In this document: piece after piece, positions 24,696 through 46,782 of the stretch
Layout of the letters: each line of letters opens with the position of its first letter
How positions within the stretch are numbered: position 1 is the first letter of the stretch
NCBI GenBank assembly: GCA_016742275.1
Contig: JACVCD010000012.1
Location: 62,001 to 126,000 of the forward strand
DNA: 64,000 nucleotides
DNA from: Gemmatimonadaceae bacterium
GTDB lineage: Bacteria > Gemmatimonadota > Gemmatimonadetes > Gemmatimonadales > Gemmatimonadaceae
Direction: 5' to 3'
Made by a program: the position numbers and the translations under genes
Notes under the pieces: generated by a model
What the model was told of the DNA's origin: nothing
The model's database searches: none
Seen by the model: only the letters and a program-made list of their open reading frames with translations

Positions 24696-25304
24696 ATGAA
24701 CGACTTGTTGGTCTGGCTCACGGGACTGCCCGATCACCTGCTGTATGGGGCCATTGTTCTCGCGGCGTTCGCTGAGAACGTATTCCCGCCACTGCCTGCC
24801 GATACCGTCATCGCTCTCGGCGCATTTGTCGCGGCTCGAGGAAACGGTACGGAATTCGGTGTGTGGTCCGCTACCATGGTCGGCAACATCGGTGGCGCGA
24901 TGTTCATGTACTGGATTGGACATCGGTACGGATTGCCGCGTCTGCAGCAGCGATTTCCAACAGCCTTTCCTGCGGACCTGGCTGAACGCTTCTCCGAGAA
25001 GTTCGCTACGCAGGGCATTCTGGCGGTGGTGGTGAGCCGCTTTCTACCTGCCGTACGGGCCGTGGTGCCTCCCGTGGCGGGTGCGCTCGGCATTGGTGCA
25101 TGGCGTGCCCTTATTGCCATGTCATTGGCTTCAGGTGCGTGGTATGCGCTGGTCTGCGTACTGGCGTTTCGCGCCGGCAGCAATGCGGATGCGCTCCTGG
25201 CGCAGATTGCATCCCAGCAGCGCACCATCGGCATCGCTGCGGCGATCGTGCTGGCACTGGGCCTTGGCGTGTGGTGGTGGATGCGACGTCGCAGAGCGCA
25301 GTAG
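24696..25304 (+). CDS. DedA family membrane protein
   Basis: SNARE-associated/DedA (VTT-domain) membrane protein, 202 residues. This family includes undecaprenyl-phosphate and phospholipid flippases. Seen: the AFAENVFPPLPADTVIALGA segment (conserved acidic residue and paired prolines), GNIGGAMFMYWIGHRYG, and SRFLPAVRAVVPPVAGA, the family motif with a re-entrant-loop arginine. The C-terminal helix ends in an Arg-rich tail. Substrate cannot be told from sequence. It lies three bases from the recombinase start. Confidence 0.85.
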   Translation: MNDLLVWLTGLPDHLLYGAIVLAAFAENVFPPLPADTVIALGAFVAARGNGTEFGVWSATMVGNIGGAMFMYWIGHRYGLPRLQQRFPTAFPADLAERFSEKFATQGILAVVVSRFLPAVRAVVPPVAGALGIGAWRALIAMSLASGAWYALVCVLAFRAGSNADALLAQIASQQRTIGIAAAIVLALGLGVWWWMRRRRAQ

Positions 25305-25306
25305 AC

Positions 25307-26266
25307 ATGGCACGTCCTCGCGCCACACCGTCGGAAGACTCGACACCAGCACACTTTCCGCAGCTGCACGTGCAGCTCTTTCTCGACGTGTTCGCCATCG
25401 AACGCGGAGCATCACCGCGCACGATCGACGCCTATCGACGTGATGTGATCGACTGTGCGCGCTTTCTGCGCAGCCAGGGAGTCGAGCGCATTACGGACGT
25501 GCGCACCGCCCATTTACGTGAATATCTGTATTCCCTCAAGGATGCTGATCCTGAGCGGGGAATCGAGCCACGCGAGAACAGCACAGTGCGCCGTCGCTTG
25601 TCGGCGCTTCGGAGCTGGTTCCGTACGCTGATCGCTGAAGGCGTCATCACCGTCGATCCGACAGAACGCCTCGATGCTCCACAGCGCTGGCGGACACTGC
25701 CGGATGTTCTCTCTGTTGATGACGTCACGAAGCTGCTATCGGCACCAAGCCTCGATGAACGTTTGGCGTTTCGCGACCGCGCCATGCTCGAACTGGCCTA
25801 CGGGGCAGGGCTTCGGGTGTCGGAGTGGATTGGTCTCGCGCAGAAGGACGTGCTGCTCGAGGACGGCCTCGTGCGGGTGTTTGGTAAGGGCAGCAAGGAG
25901 CGGCTTGTGCCCATTGGGCGCTCAGCCATCGGTGCCGTGGCTGTGTATCTGCGCGAGCTCAGACCCGTGCTCGAGCGCGGTCATGGCAAGGGTTTGTTGT
26001 TCCTGAACGGTCAGGGAAAGCCGCTCACCCGTATGGGGGCCTGGAAAATCCTGCAGAAGTACGTGACCATGGCCGGTATCGAAAAGCACGTCTCGCCCCA
26101 CACGCTCCGGCACTCGTTTGCCACGCATTTGCTGGAAGGTGGGGCCGATCTGCGTGCGGTGCAGGAAATGCTGGGACATGCAGATATCGCCACGACGCAG
26201 ATCTACACGCACATCGATCGTGAGTATCTTCGAAGTGTGCACAAGCAGTTCCACCCACGCGGCTGA
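25307..26266 (+). CDS. Xer tyrosine recombinase (XerC/XerD)
   Basis: Tyrosine recombinase of 319 residues, the kind that resolves chromosome dimers at dif. An N-terminal SAM-like core-binding domain (about 18-115) is followed by the catalytic domain with R170, a lysine in the FGKGSKERLVP hairpin, H265-x-x-R268, H291 and nucleophile Y300. The C-terminal THIDREYLRSVHKQFHPR resembles XerD. The frame is open upstream within dedA, but the ATG at 25307 is the natural start. Its likely target, a dif site, lies about 19.5 kb downstream. Whether it is XerC or XerD cannot be fixed without the paralogue. Confidence 0.9.
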   Translation: MARPRATPSEDSTPAHFPQLHVQLFLDVFAIERGASPRTIDAYRRDVIDCARFLRSQGVERITDVRTAHLREYLYSLKDADPERGIEPRENSTVRRRLSALRSWFRTLIAEGVITVDPTERLDAPQRWRTLPDVLSVDDVTKLLSAPSLDERLAFRDRAMLELAYGAGLRVSEWIGLAQKDVLLEDGLVRVFGKGSKERLVPIGRSAIGAVAVYLRELRPVLERGHGKGLLFLNGQGKPLTRMGAWKILQKYVTMAGIEKHVSPHTLRHSFATHLLEGGADLRAVQEMLGHADIATTQIYTHIDREYLRSVHKQFHPRG

Positions 26267-43867: not shown

Positions 43868-44625
43868 CACGAATGAAGACTCCAGCGCGTGGTGCGCTGG
43901 CGTTGGGTGAACGGGGCATTGTCATCGTGCCCACGTACAACGAGAGCGAGAACATCACGCGCATCGTGCCGCAGATCCTCGACCAGGATCCGCGGCTTGA
44001 GGTGTTGATCGTTGACGACAATTCGCCGGATGGCACGGGCCAGTTGGCCGACGCCCTGGCCGAAGATGATCAGCGCGTGCACGTGCTTCATCGTCCCGGC
44101 AAAGAAGGTCTTGGTCGCGCGTATCTCGCCGGCTTCAGATGGGCGCTTGAGCGCGACTATTCGTACGTGTTCGAAATGGACGCGGACTTCTCCCACGATC
44201 CGCGCCATCTACCGGAGTTTCTGGCCGCCGTACGAGACAAAGATCTCGTGCTTGGCTCGCGGTATCGCGATGGCAAGGTCACCGTGGTCAACTGGCCGAT
44301 CGCGCGCTTGATGCTTTCATACGGTGCCAATATCTACGCGCGTGCCGTGACTGGTATGCGATTGGGCGATGGAACCGGTGGCTTCAAGTGCTTCCGCCGC
44401 GAAGTGCTTGCCGCCATCCCGCTCGACCAGGTCCGCTCCAACGGCTACGCCTTTCAGATCGAGATGAGCTTCCGCGCATGGAAGAAGGGATTTCGCATCG
44501 CCGAGATTCCCATCGTTTTCCATGACCGCACCGAGGGTGAATCAAAGATGTCCAAGGGCATCGTTCGCGAAGCGATCTGGATGGTATGGCGTCTCCGTTG
44601 GTGGGCCATGACGGGGCAGGTATGA
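43864..44625 (+). CDS. polyprenol-phosphate mannosyltransferase-like GT2
   Basis: Family 2 glycosyltransferase of the DPM1 type, 253 residues, GTG start. Motifs: IVIVPTYNESENITRIV, VLIVDDNSPDGTGQLA, FEMDADFSHDPRHLPEF (DXD), GSRYRDGKV and VFHDRTEGESKMSKGI. There is no C-terminal membrane domain, so it is the soluble dolichol-phosphate-mannose-synthase form. It would supply polyprenyl-phosphate hexose for the neighbouring membrane enzymes. The stop overlaps dapF (ATGA). Confidence 0.87.
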   Translation: MTRMKTPARGALALGERGIVIVPTYNESENITRIVPQILDQDPRLEVLIVDDNSPDGTGQLADALAEDDQRVHVLHRPGKEGLGRAYLAGFRWALERDYSYVFEMDADFSHDPRHLPEFLAAVRDKDLVLGSRYRDGKVTVVNWPIARLMLSYGANIYARAVTGMRLGDGTGGFKCFRREVLAAIPLDQVRSNGYAFQIEMSFRAWKKGFRIAEIPIVFHDRTEGESKMSKGIVREAIWMVWRLRWWAMTGQV

Positions 44626-45473
44626 GCGCTTCTCTGAAGGGGCTGCCTTTCGCCAAGATGACGGGATCGGGCAATGATTTCGTCTTCTTCGATGGACGAG
44701 TGGTGCCGCTTCCATTGGTGACAACACCTGAAGCGATCACTCGTATCTGCAACAGGTACAACGGTATAGGCGCCGACGGTGTTGTCGTGCTCGAACCAAT
44801 CATGTCGGGCGCCGATGTTCAGATCCACTACTACAACAGTGATGGATCGCCGGCCGACCTCTGTGGTAACGCCACTCTATGTTCGACCGCGTTGTCGGCT
44901 GAGCTGGGCCTGGCGCAATCATCAGGTATGCAGTTGCTGACAGGAGCCGGACTCATCAATAGCCGAGTCGCTTCTCCTGTCGGTTTACCAGAGATCGATC
45001 TCCAGCCGGTTACAGACATTCGGGGGGCCATGCCCATCGAATTGGGCCCAGGTGAGGAGCGGGTGGGGTTCTCCATTGCCGGCATTCCGCACCTGGTTGT
45101 TCTGGCAGCCGACGCGGAAGTCATTGATCTGGCGGCTCGAGGACCGGGGCTTCGCTGGCATCCCAGCACCGGGGAAAGGGGCGCAAACGTGAATTGGGTG
45201 TCGCCACTTCCAGATGGTCGTTGGCGTTATCGCACGTTCGAGCGCGGTGTCGAAGGCGAAACCTTGGCTTGCGGAACTGGTGCAGTGGCTACGGCCATAT
45301 TGCTGGTGCACTGGGGACTGGCCTCACTGCCAACCGTGACCCTGCAGACCAGCAGCGGTCGGGACGTCCGAGTGAGCCTCTCGGAGGTGGGTAGTGGCAA
45401 CGCGGGATACGCGCCAACGCTGAGCGGAGAAGGTCGAATCGTATTCCGCGGTAACATCGGCGATCTCGGCTAA
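44622..45473 (+). CDS. dapF: diaminopimelate epimerase
   Basis: Interconverts LL- and meso-diaminopimelate for lysine and peptidoglycan. It has 283 residues. The two catalytic cysteines are C81 (NSDGSPADLCGN) and C217 (GETLACGTGAVAT); the N-terminal MTGSGNDFVFFD is typical. After C81 the sequence is CGNATLC, so leucine replaces the arginine of the usual CGN[GA]xR signature. The frame is open 36 bases upstream, but ATG 44622 overlaps the previous stop (ATGA). It is the last + strand gene before the terminus region. Confidence 0.92.
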   Translation: MSASLKGLPFAKMTGSGNDFVFFDGRVVPLPLVTTPEAITRICNRYNGIGADGVVVLEPIMSGADVQIHYYNSDGSPADLCGNATLCSTALSAELGLAQSSGMQLLTGAGLINSRVASPVGLPEIDLQPVTDIRGAMPIELGPGEERVGFSIAGIPHLVVLAADAEVIDLAARGPGLRWHPSTGERGANVNWVSPLPDGRWRYRTFERGVEGETLACGTGAVATAILLVHWGLASLPTVTLQTSSGRDVRVSLSEVGSGNAGYAPTLSGEGRIVFRGNIGDLG

Positions 45474-45521
45474 ACTGGCTCCACGTCGTTCTTTCCCGAA
45501 CTGACAATTTGTACTGCCCAC

Positions 45522-45556
45522 ATGGCGGCTCACACGTGAGTCGCCATTTCTTGTTT
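45522..45556 (+). terminator. rho-independent terminator after dapF
   Basis: ATGGCG-GCTCAC pairs with GTGAGT-CGCCAT (12 bp, one G-U) to form a hairpin at 45522-45547, followed by TTCTTGTTT. It lies about 50 bases after the dapF stop and ends the long + strand operon. Confidence 0.85.
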
Positions 45557-45562
45557 GTCAAT

Positions 45563-45578
45563 GTGGACAGGTGGACAG
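45563..45578 (+). repeat. tandem repeat of GTGGACAG
   Basis: Two perfect adjacent copies of GTGGACAG (45563-45570 and 45571-45578), 142 bases left of dif. Function unknown. Confidence 0.6.
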
Positions 45579-45640
45579 TCTGAGGATTTCGTGAGCGACC
45601 GGCAACGCCACACATCTCGAGACATGGTTTAAGTCTAACA

Positions 45641-45665
45641 CTGGCAATTGTTTACACCTTGCCAG
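45641..45665. repeat. inverted repeat with XerD-arm-like loop
   Basis: CTGGCAA and TTGCCAG form a perfect 7-bp inverted repeat around an 11-base loop. The loop contains TTGTTTACA, which is identical to 45719-45727 at the left edge of dif. It could be an accessory site or chance. Confidence 0.4.
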
Positions 45666-45719
45666 CTGAAACAGAGAAGATTTCCACGCGGGTTTTTCCC
45701 ACACTTATCCACCATGGTT

Positions 45720-45747
45720 TGTTTACATAACATGTATTATACGCACT
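45720..45747. other. dif site (XerCD chromosome dimer resolution site)
   Basis: A 28-bp site with two 11-bp recombinase arms around a 6-bp centre: TGTTTACATAA, CATGTA, TTATACGCACT. Read on the - strand, the arms are AGTGCGTATAA (9 of 11 match the E. coli XerC arm GGTGCGCATAA) and TTATGTAAACA (8 of 11 match the E. coli XerD arm TTATGTTAAAT; 10 of 11 match the B. subtilis TTATGTAAACT). The inner ATAA-N6-TTAT palindrome is intact. It lies in a gene-free AT-rich gap where gene orientation flips from + to -, as expected at the replication terminus. The comparison sequences are from memory. Confidence 0.85.
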
Positions 45748-45837
45748 AAAAGCAAAGAAACTAAGACAAGACTGCCCTTTATATGTCCGCTTACTGACCC
45801 ATTACTGCTGGACTGATTTCTGCAGCATTCAGCATAG

Positions 45838-45867
45838 AAAAACGGCCCGATCATCGACCGGGCCGTT
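45838..45867 (-). terminator. rho-independent terminator of the - strand TPR gene
   Basis: AACGGCCCG (45841-45849) and CGGGCCGTT (45859-45867) form a perfect 9-bp stem. On the - strand the stem is followed by a run of five T. It lies 38 bases after the stop of the - strand gene at 45906. Confidence 0.88.
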
Positions 45868-45905
45868 CGTCAATCAGATCAGACGAGCGATGAAAGACAA
45901 TCCGC

Positions 45906-46571
45906 TCAAGGCTGCTTACCAGCAAGCTCGCCAAGCCGCACCTGGGCTTCCTGCTGAGCCTGCGATCCTTCCAACTGGGCCAGCGCTTCCCAGATCGTCT
46001 TGGCTTCCGCGCCCTTTCCTGCAGCCATCAGACTGCGAGCCTGCGACGCCTGAAAGGTCTGCTTCTCGGTCGGAAAGCTCGTGGCATCGGCAGCCTTGCC
46101 GTATGCCTCGGCAGCCTTGGCGAAGTCACCCTTGAGCTCGTAGCCGCTGGCGATCATGGCGTTGATGCTCGGCTTGAAGTCGGCACTTGCCGATCCCAGG
46201 GCCTTTTCGAGTCCCTTGATCCCATCGTCGTACTTCTTCTGCTCGTACTGGACCTGGGCCAGCATCAGCACTGCCTGCTGCCCCGAGGCCGTACTGCCGA
46301 AGCGATCTACGACCTTCGAAAGCGCGCTCTCGGCTTCGGTGAACTTCCCCTCGACGAATGGCTGCTGCGCCGTATACAGCGCCGCTGAAGCCTTTTCGCG
46401 GGTCGACGCCGTCGTACTGCGATAGACGAAGATCGCGGCAGCGGCGATGGCGGCTCCACCGAGCACCATGGCGATCGGCTTGCTGTTCATCTGCAACCAG
46501 TTCGTGAACGACTCGATCGGATCGTCGCTCAGAGAGGCCGAAGAGCCTGCGGTACGGGGCGCCTGCGCCAT
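45906..46571 (-). CDS. YfgM-like tetratricopeptide membrane protein
   Basis: 221-residue protein with a cytoplasmic N-terminus, one membrane helix (about 32-50, KPIAMVLGGAAIAAAAIFV) and a periplasmic TPR region. The layout matches YfgM, a partner of the Sec translocon and periplasmic chaperones. TPR units include FVEGKFTEAESALSKVVDRF and YEQKKYDDGIKGLEKAL. The frame stays open upstream into the tRNA gene, but ATG 46571 is the credible start. It has its own terminator next to dif. Confidence 0.75.
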   Translation of the reverse strand: MAQAPRTAGSSASLSDDPIESFTNWLQMNSKPIAMVLGGAAIAAAAIFVYRSTTASTREKASAALYTAQQPFVEGKFTEAESALSKVVDRFGSTASGQQAVLMLAQVQYEQKKYDDGIKGLEKALGSASADFKPSINAMIASGYELKGDFAKAAEAYGKAADATSFPTEKQTFQASQARSLMAAGKGAEAKTIWEALAQLEGSQAQQEAQVRLGELAGKQP

Positions 46572-46707
46572 GCGAATTGCCAACGGTAAGGAGGAGGACA
46601 AAGGAAACGGCGGGCGCGCACGCAAGGTGCTCGCCCAGCCATTACCGGCCAGTCTTGAAACATAGCGAAGCCAGGGGCAAGTGGGCACCCGCTTCGCACC
46701 GCAAAAA

Positions 46708-46782
<75 letters not shown>

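Follow-up and report, generated by a model that had tools for sequence, protein, structure and literature searches.

The window analyzed here, a stretch of 64,000 nucleotides from a member of the Gemmatimonadaceae, contains a gene-free gap (45474-45905) that holds its most AT-rich 200-bp stretches, with a GC content of 0.41-0.45. Two genes converge on this gap, dapF on the plus strand and a TPR/BamD-like gene on the minus strand. The locus therefore has the setting that an earlier, sequence-only reading had described for a candidate dif site: an AT-rich gap without genes at the point where gene orientation flips. The features of the locus are collected in Table 1. A tRNA-Arg (CCT) gene at 46708-46782 (-) overlaps the 5' end of the listed ORF 45906-46739, and the TPR/BamD-like gene therefore probably starts further downstream.

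Table 1. Features at and around the dif locus, with the xerD gene of the same window
Feature	Position	Strand	Basis or remark
xerD, tyrosine recombinase	25301-26266	+	over the NCBIfam XerD equivalog cut-off
dapF, diaminopimelate epimerase	44586-45473	+	3' end faces dif on its XerD side, an arrangement conserved in f1-f3
Probable dapF terminator (inverted repeat, then T-rich stretch)	45522-45547	+	sequence read; separate from the boxes
Possible weaker third box, CGTGGAAAT	45680-45688	-	noticed by eye in several congeners, within part of the genus
Box 2, TGTGGGAAA (TTTCCCACA on +)	45695-45703	-	begins 16 bp past the XerD arm
Box 1, GGTGGATAA (TTATCCACC on +)	45705-45713	-	begins 6 bp past the XerD arm
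XerD arm of dif	45720-45730	-	sequence comparison
Central 6 bp of dif (TACATG)	45731-45736	-	sequence
XerC arm of dif	45737-45747	-	sequence comparison
Probable terminator of the minus-strand gene (G+C-rich inverted repeat)	45841-45866	-	sequence read
TPR/BamD-like gene	45906-46739	-	convergent, on the XerC side of dif

Read on the minus strand, positions 45720-45747 give AGTGCGTATAA-TACATG-TTATGTAAACA, an 11-6-11 layout lying exactly where the sequence-only reading had put it. We compared the arms with experimentally confirmed dif sites as given in PMC3025954. The XerC arm is identical to that of E. coli dif at 9/11 positions and the XerD arm to that of B. subtilis dif at 10/11, the same figures as had been given before. 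With up to three mismatches allowed, the dif pattern matched once in the window, in none of 100 shuffles, and once in the whole 4.57-Mb source genome. The search for a second genomic copy thus found none, and dif is single in this genome.

Does the site lie at the replication terminus? Because the source genome is in 33 contigs, we read whole-chromosome skew from a closed congener, G020 (4,636,964 bp; genus-level relatives of the source genome are labelled Gemmatimonas), using 20 contiguous 20-kb tiles and 40 sampled tiles. With few exceptions, tiles ahead of dif had positive GC skew and tiles beyond it had negative skew. The cumulative maximum in the 400-kb tiling fell at 1,930,413, only 115 bp from dif at ~1,930,298, and in the window it fell at 45,433, ~300 bp from dif. 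The skew extremum that had been suggested as a check is therefore found beside the site in both. Measured in the direction of dnaA transcription, dif lies ~42% of the chromosome away from dnaA in G020, 45% in G028, and 44% in G029. Skew thus locates dif at the terminus, but the earlier phrase "defining the replication terminus" goes slightly too far: dif, where dimers are resolved, lies inside the terminus and need not be the point at which the forks meet. A replication origin at this locus was ruled out by the skew maximum, the converging genes, and the location of dnaA elsewhere. The GC-skew switch and the position of dif are known to correlate widely (PMC3025954).

The machinery that acts on dif is encoded as well. 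The Xer recombinase gene predicted 19.5 kb from the site was found as xerD; this window copy is the one of the two recombinases that we scored with the XerD equivalog model. The distance from xerD to dif is 18-22 kb in the closed congeners G020, G028, and G029 too. G000, G020, G028, and G029 each encode two strong Xer-type tyrosine recombinases (XerC and XerD) and one FtsK gamma domain. We also counted the strand bias of 8-mers over 1.18 Mb of G020 with no motif preselected. The most leading-strand-biased 8-mer was GGGCAGGG, at 67:8 overall and 26:1 in tiles within ~200 kb of dif, and GGGNAGGG was biased 125:26. GGGCAGGG and GGGNAGGG are the KOPS consensus known from E. coli, and in this congener KOPS are polarized towards dif. 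Together, the skew and KOPS results document a terminus for Gemmatimonas.

The site is also kept in related genomes, be they congeners, members of the family, or more distant members of the phylum. A tighter version of the pattern matched in 333/395 Gemmatimonadota genomes, usually once per genome, and dif was matched in 74/76 genomes of a second set, hand-chosen and consisting mostly of class and phylum relatives. A single dif per genome is the rule among congeners and family members. Two draft congeners, G010 (C159, C260) and G024 (C25, C202), have two dif copies near contig ends; the XerC flanks of the G010 copies differ slightly, which looks like a strain mixture or assembly breaks at dif. 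Several near-complete genomes of genus g23 (e.g., G051, G076, G208, and G211) and of g24 gave no match to the dif patterns used, and dif may have diverged or been lost there. One single-contig genome of family f9 (G226) carries two different dif-like sites, at C1:776995 (-) and C1:3732205 (+), which are separated by ~1.14 Mb along the shorter arc of the chromosome, should it be circular. A dif site was already predicted in one Gemmatimonadetes genome in a survey across 16 phyla (Kono et al. 2011, PMC3025954), and the prediction of dif in Gemmatimonadota is therefore not new.

The identity of the site as dif is backed by the skew extremum, its uniqueness, its conservation in relatives, FtsK gamma, XerC, and the polarized KOPS, and the 28-mer is almost certainly the spot where daughter chromosomes separate in this Gemmatimonadota bacterium. 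By homology, XerC would bind 45737-45747 and XerD would bind 45720-45730. FtsK would be steered to dif by GGGNAGGG-type KOPS, which on both arms are oriented towards the site, and, once there, would be expected from homologous systems to switch on XerD, so that chromosome dimers could be resolved at division. We put a probability of about 93% on the overall explanation that a Gemmatimonadota bacterium has its chromosomal dif here, together with a second element, made up of boxes, that belongs to the site.

This second element is the tandem GGTGGATAA-G-TGTGGGAAA at 45695-45713, outside the 28-mer of the sequence-only reading, which had overlooked it. A comparison of flanks across the genus showed that the XerD side reads GGTGGATAACTGTGGGAAA or close variants, beginning 6 bp past the arm; the XerC side is not conserved, and NGTGGRNAA matches there are scattered only. 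Ignoring kinship and using patterns drawn from the loci themselves, we found NGTGGRNAA starting at +15/+16 in 68/78 distinct dif loci (families f1-f4 and f6); within the first 120 bp of the 78 loci it occurs at no other offsets than +5 and +6. Among these 68 boxes, GTGG and AA are invariant (by virtue of the selecting pattern), position 7 varies freely, and 61 have T at position 1. Across the five families, conservation within the element is highest in box 2, and the conserved element as a whole spans ~20 bp. In genus g13 the second box follows the first after ~19 bp instead of 10. The second element of the site consists of one or two NGTGGRNAA 9-mers (TTNYCCACN on the opposite strand), which lie past the XerD arm at distances of 5-6 and 15-16 bp.

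How far does the element extend? We found no other tandem copy within two mismatches in the source genome, where the best other match had three, and a 1.2-Mb sample of G020 likewise yielded no further tandem. The box is missing at dif in all 24 loci drawn from other families (f5, f8, f10, and similar ones), and among the rows listed for f7, f9, and f11 it was absent by eye. Since f5 and f7-f10 have dif and DnaA without the boxes, the boxes are not required for Xer recombination generally. A scan of other phyla covered a sample of genome contigs, and nearly all records among the matches listed were labelled Gemmatimonadota; of the others inspected among those matches, most look like chance in AT-rich DNA. 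Three of the matches listed (L190, L197, and L230) have a Gemmatimonadota-type dif and box with dapF adjoining and are therefore probably unlabelled or mis-binned. One of these, L230 (CALQGY020000030.1), is labelled Candidatus Kuenenia, carries a dif, boxes, and dapF of the Gemmatimonas type, and is probably a mis-binned contig; MAG contigs among the loci may in general be mis-binned. A viral record, L404 at 1087-1131 (IMGVR_UViG_3300033149_003577; G407:C1:19239-19309), has dif-like arms (AGTACCGATAA and TTATGTAAACT) around a central region that differs (CTGTTA); TGTGGATAA stands at +15, as in the host element. It is possibly a phage site that exploits host Xer recombination, or it could be a chance match. 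Five other viral matches look like chance.

What might bind the boxes? As words, box 1 of the window agrees with the DnaA box TTATCCACA at 8/9 positions and box 2 at 7/9, and exact TTATCCACA or TTNTCCACA stands at the boxes in many relatives. A box of the form TTWTCCACA lies upstream of dnaA: TT[ATG]TCCACA was found there in 29/31 evaluable genomes of box-bearing families versus 5/15 of other families, two of those five having it on the other strand. The DnaA of the source genome carries the domain IV signature GGRDHSTVIH. Based on the box word, the box upstream of dnaA, and this signature, DnaA is the leading candidate binder. A strict pattern detected no oriC cluster of DnaA boxes around the skew minimum near dnaA in G020, a minimum that is itself noisy (about +5 to +44 kb), and the local DnaA consensus is therefore not independently fixed by oriC. 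Judging from sequence, we give the binding of DnaA to the boxes slightly less than even odds. If it does bind, the boxes may be a dif-linked DnaA-binding element that times or shapes Xer recombination. The function we prefer, doubtful as it is, would have DnaA on the XerD side govern locally the architecture or timing of XerCD-FtsK recombination or of terminus handling; DnaA might also serve there as a mark of the terminus. A 597-aa protein with two DnaA-like AAA+ domains (L316 4613-6406 (-), G000:C2) did not match the portion of the DnaA model that binds DNA; comparable pairs of DnaA-like AAA+ matches occur in many relatives. This protein was set aside as a binder of the boxes for want of a domain IV match.

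The boxes could instead be bound by a protein other than DnaA, a terminus or Xer accessory factor with a role like that of ArgR/PepA at plasmid cer. The fixed spacing from the XerD arm and the arm-like conservation suggest contact with the Xer complex, and the words in the window are imperfect DnaA boxes. However, the box upstream of dnaA shares the TTNTCCACA form and has a similar family distribution, and the accessory sequences of cer are far larger (~180 bp, PMC5357621). We consider another binder unlikely, if still worth serious attention. A second possibility is that the boxes serve initiation control through DnaA, as a small sink or inactivation site of the datA kind that sits at the terminus and is replicated last in each cycle. 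DnaA-box-like words in single copy per chromosome at the last-replicated locus would suit such a sink, but there are only one or two boxes and no larger cluster, and the near-fixed spacing from dif (within a base or two) across families is left unexplained. It seems improbable to us.

Could the boxes simply extend the Xer/FtsK site, through direct contact with XerD or FtsK gamma? They do lie at a fixed distance from dif and on the XerD side, where FtsK gamma acts. Yet +15/+16 falls beyond the 11-bp arm, the boxes are unlike GGGNAGGG, and the G-rich strand of the boxes points away from dif, the reverse of KOPS, all of which makes this extension a long shot. That the boxes are themselves KOPS was ruled out by the 8-mer result in G020 and by box orientation. 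We also regard as very improbable that the boxes are a Ter-like replication-fork barrier beside dif that explains the sharp skew switch. This switch is 115-300 bp from dif and is sharp even though in three closed congeners dif is 42-45% of the chromosome away from dnaA and not at the midpoint. However, sharp skew switches at dif correlate widely anyway (PMC3025954), and a single barrier would stop only one fork.

Finally, the neighborhood of dapF has to be considered. Its 3' end faces the XerD side of dif in 68/71 loci of f1-f3, and in f4 and f6 dapF was not detected (tblastn, 1e-3), while the box at the same dif spacing is kept in most of 11 loci. Because the f4 and f6 boxes persist without detectable dapF, the box follows dif and not dapF. 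The idea that the boxes are part of the dapF 3' end or terminator, and are conserved as a by-product of dapF, draws on dapF adjoining dif in nearly all sampled f1-f3 loci, sometimes only 36 bp away, but is scarcely credible given these f4 and f6 boxes, a spacing that is constant relative to dif and not to dapF, and a window in which dapF ends 222 bp from box 2 with its own hairpin between. A function of the boxes as the dapF terminator was rejected on the f4 and f6 boxes without detectable dapF and on the comparison of the f1-f3 loci.

The site shares with the dif/XerCD systems of E. coli and B. subtilis its 28-bp length, the 11-6-11 layout, the arm sequences, and the single copy, as well as the position at the GC-skew switch, XerC, XerD, FtsK gamma, and the GGGNAGGG KOPS polarity. 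It differs from them in having a conserved DnaA-box-like tandem at a fixed spacing on the XerD side. If the boxes are accessory, they would resemble plasmid cer and psi (ArgR/ArcA with PepA) in placing a protein-binding sequence beside a Xer core. Plasmid Xer accessory sequences sit on the XerC side. Those of cer measure ~180 bp (PMC5357621), whereas the chromosomal dif here has two 9-mers on its XerD side; a long accessory sequence of the cer/psi type (~180 bp) was not found here, where the conserved element is ~20 bp. Like datA and DARS1/2 of E. coli, the boxes are DnaA-box-like sequences outside the origin, but datA and DARS1/2 lie away from dif in larger arrangements (PMC4585315), and the boxes here adjoin dif. 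The main text of Kono et al. 2011 (PMC3025954) makes no mention of DnaA or of flanking sequences, and at the level of titles, abstracts, and passages we found no dif-linked DnaA-box element in the literature. The conserved box pair adjoining dif is thus apparently undescribed so far. The new part looks to be this box element, dif itself being an already-known kind of site.

Why would a terminus carry an initiator-like box? The dif site is usually treated as a self-contained 28-mer controlled by FtsK. A conserved box of this kind at a fixed spacing from dif suggests a further layer of terminus control in one clade. We advance, tentatively and at somewhat worse than even odds, that across a large part of the Gemmatimonadota DnaA binds immediately next to dif, on its XerD side, and that the initiator joins in dimer resolution or terminus handling. 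The two 9-mers are a small and precise target for asking whether DnaA acts at the end of replication too. If this is true, one locus would, through DnaA beside dif, physically tie the beginning of the replication cycle to its end.
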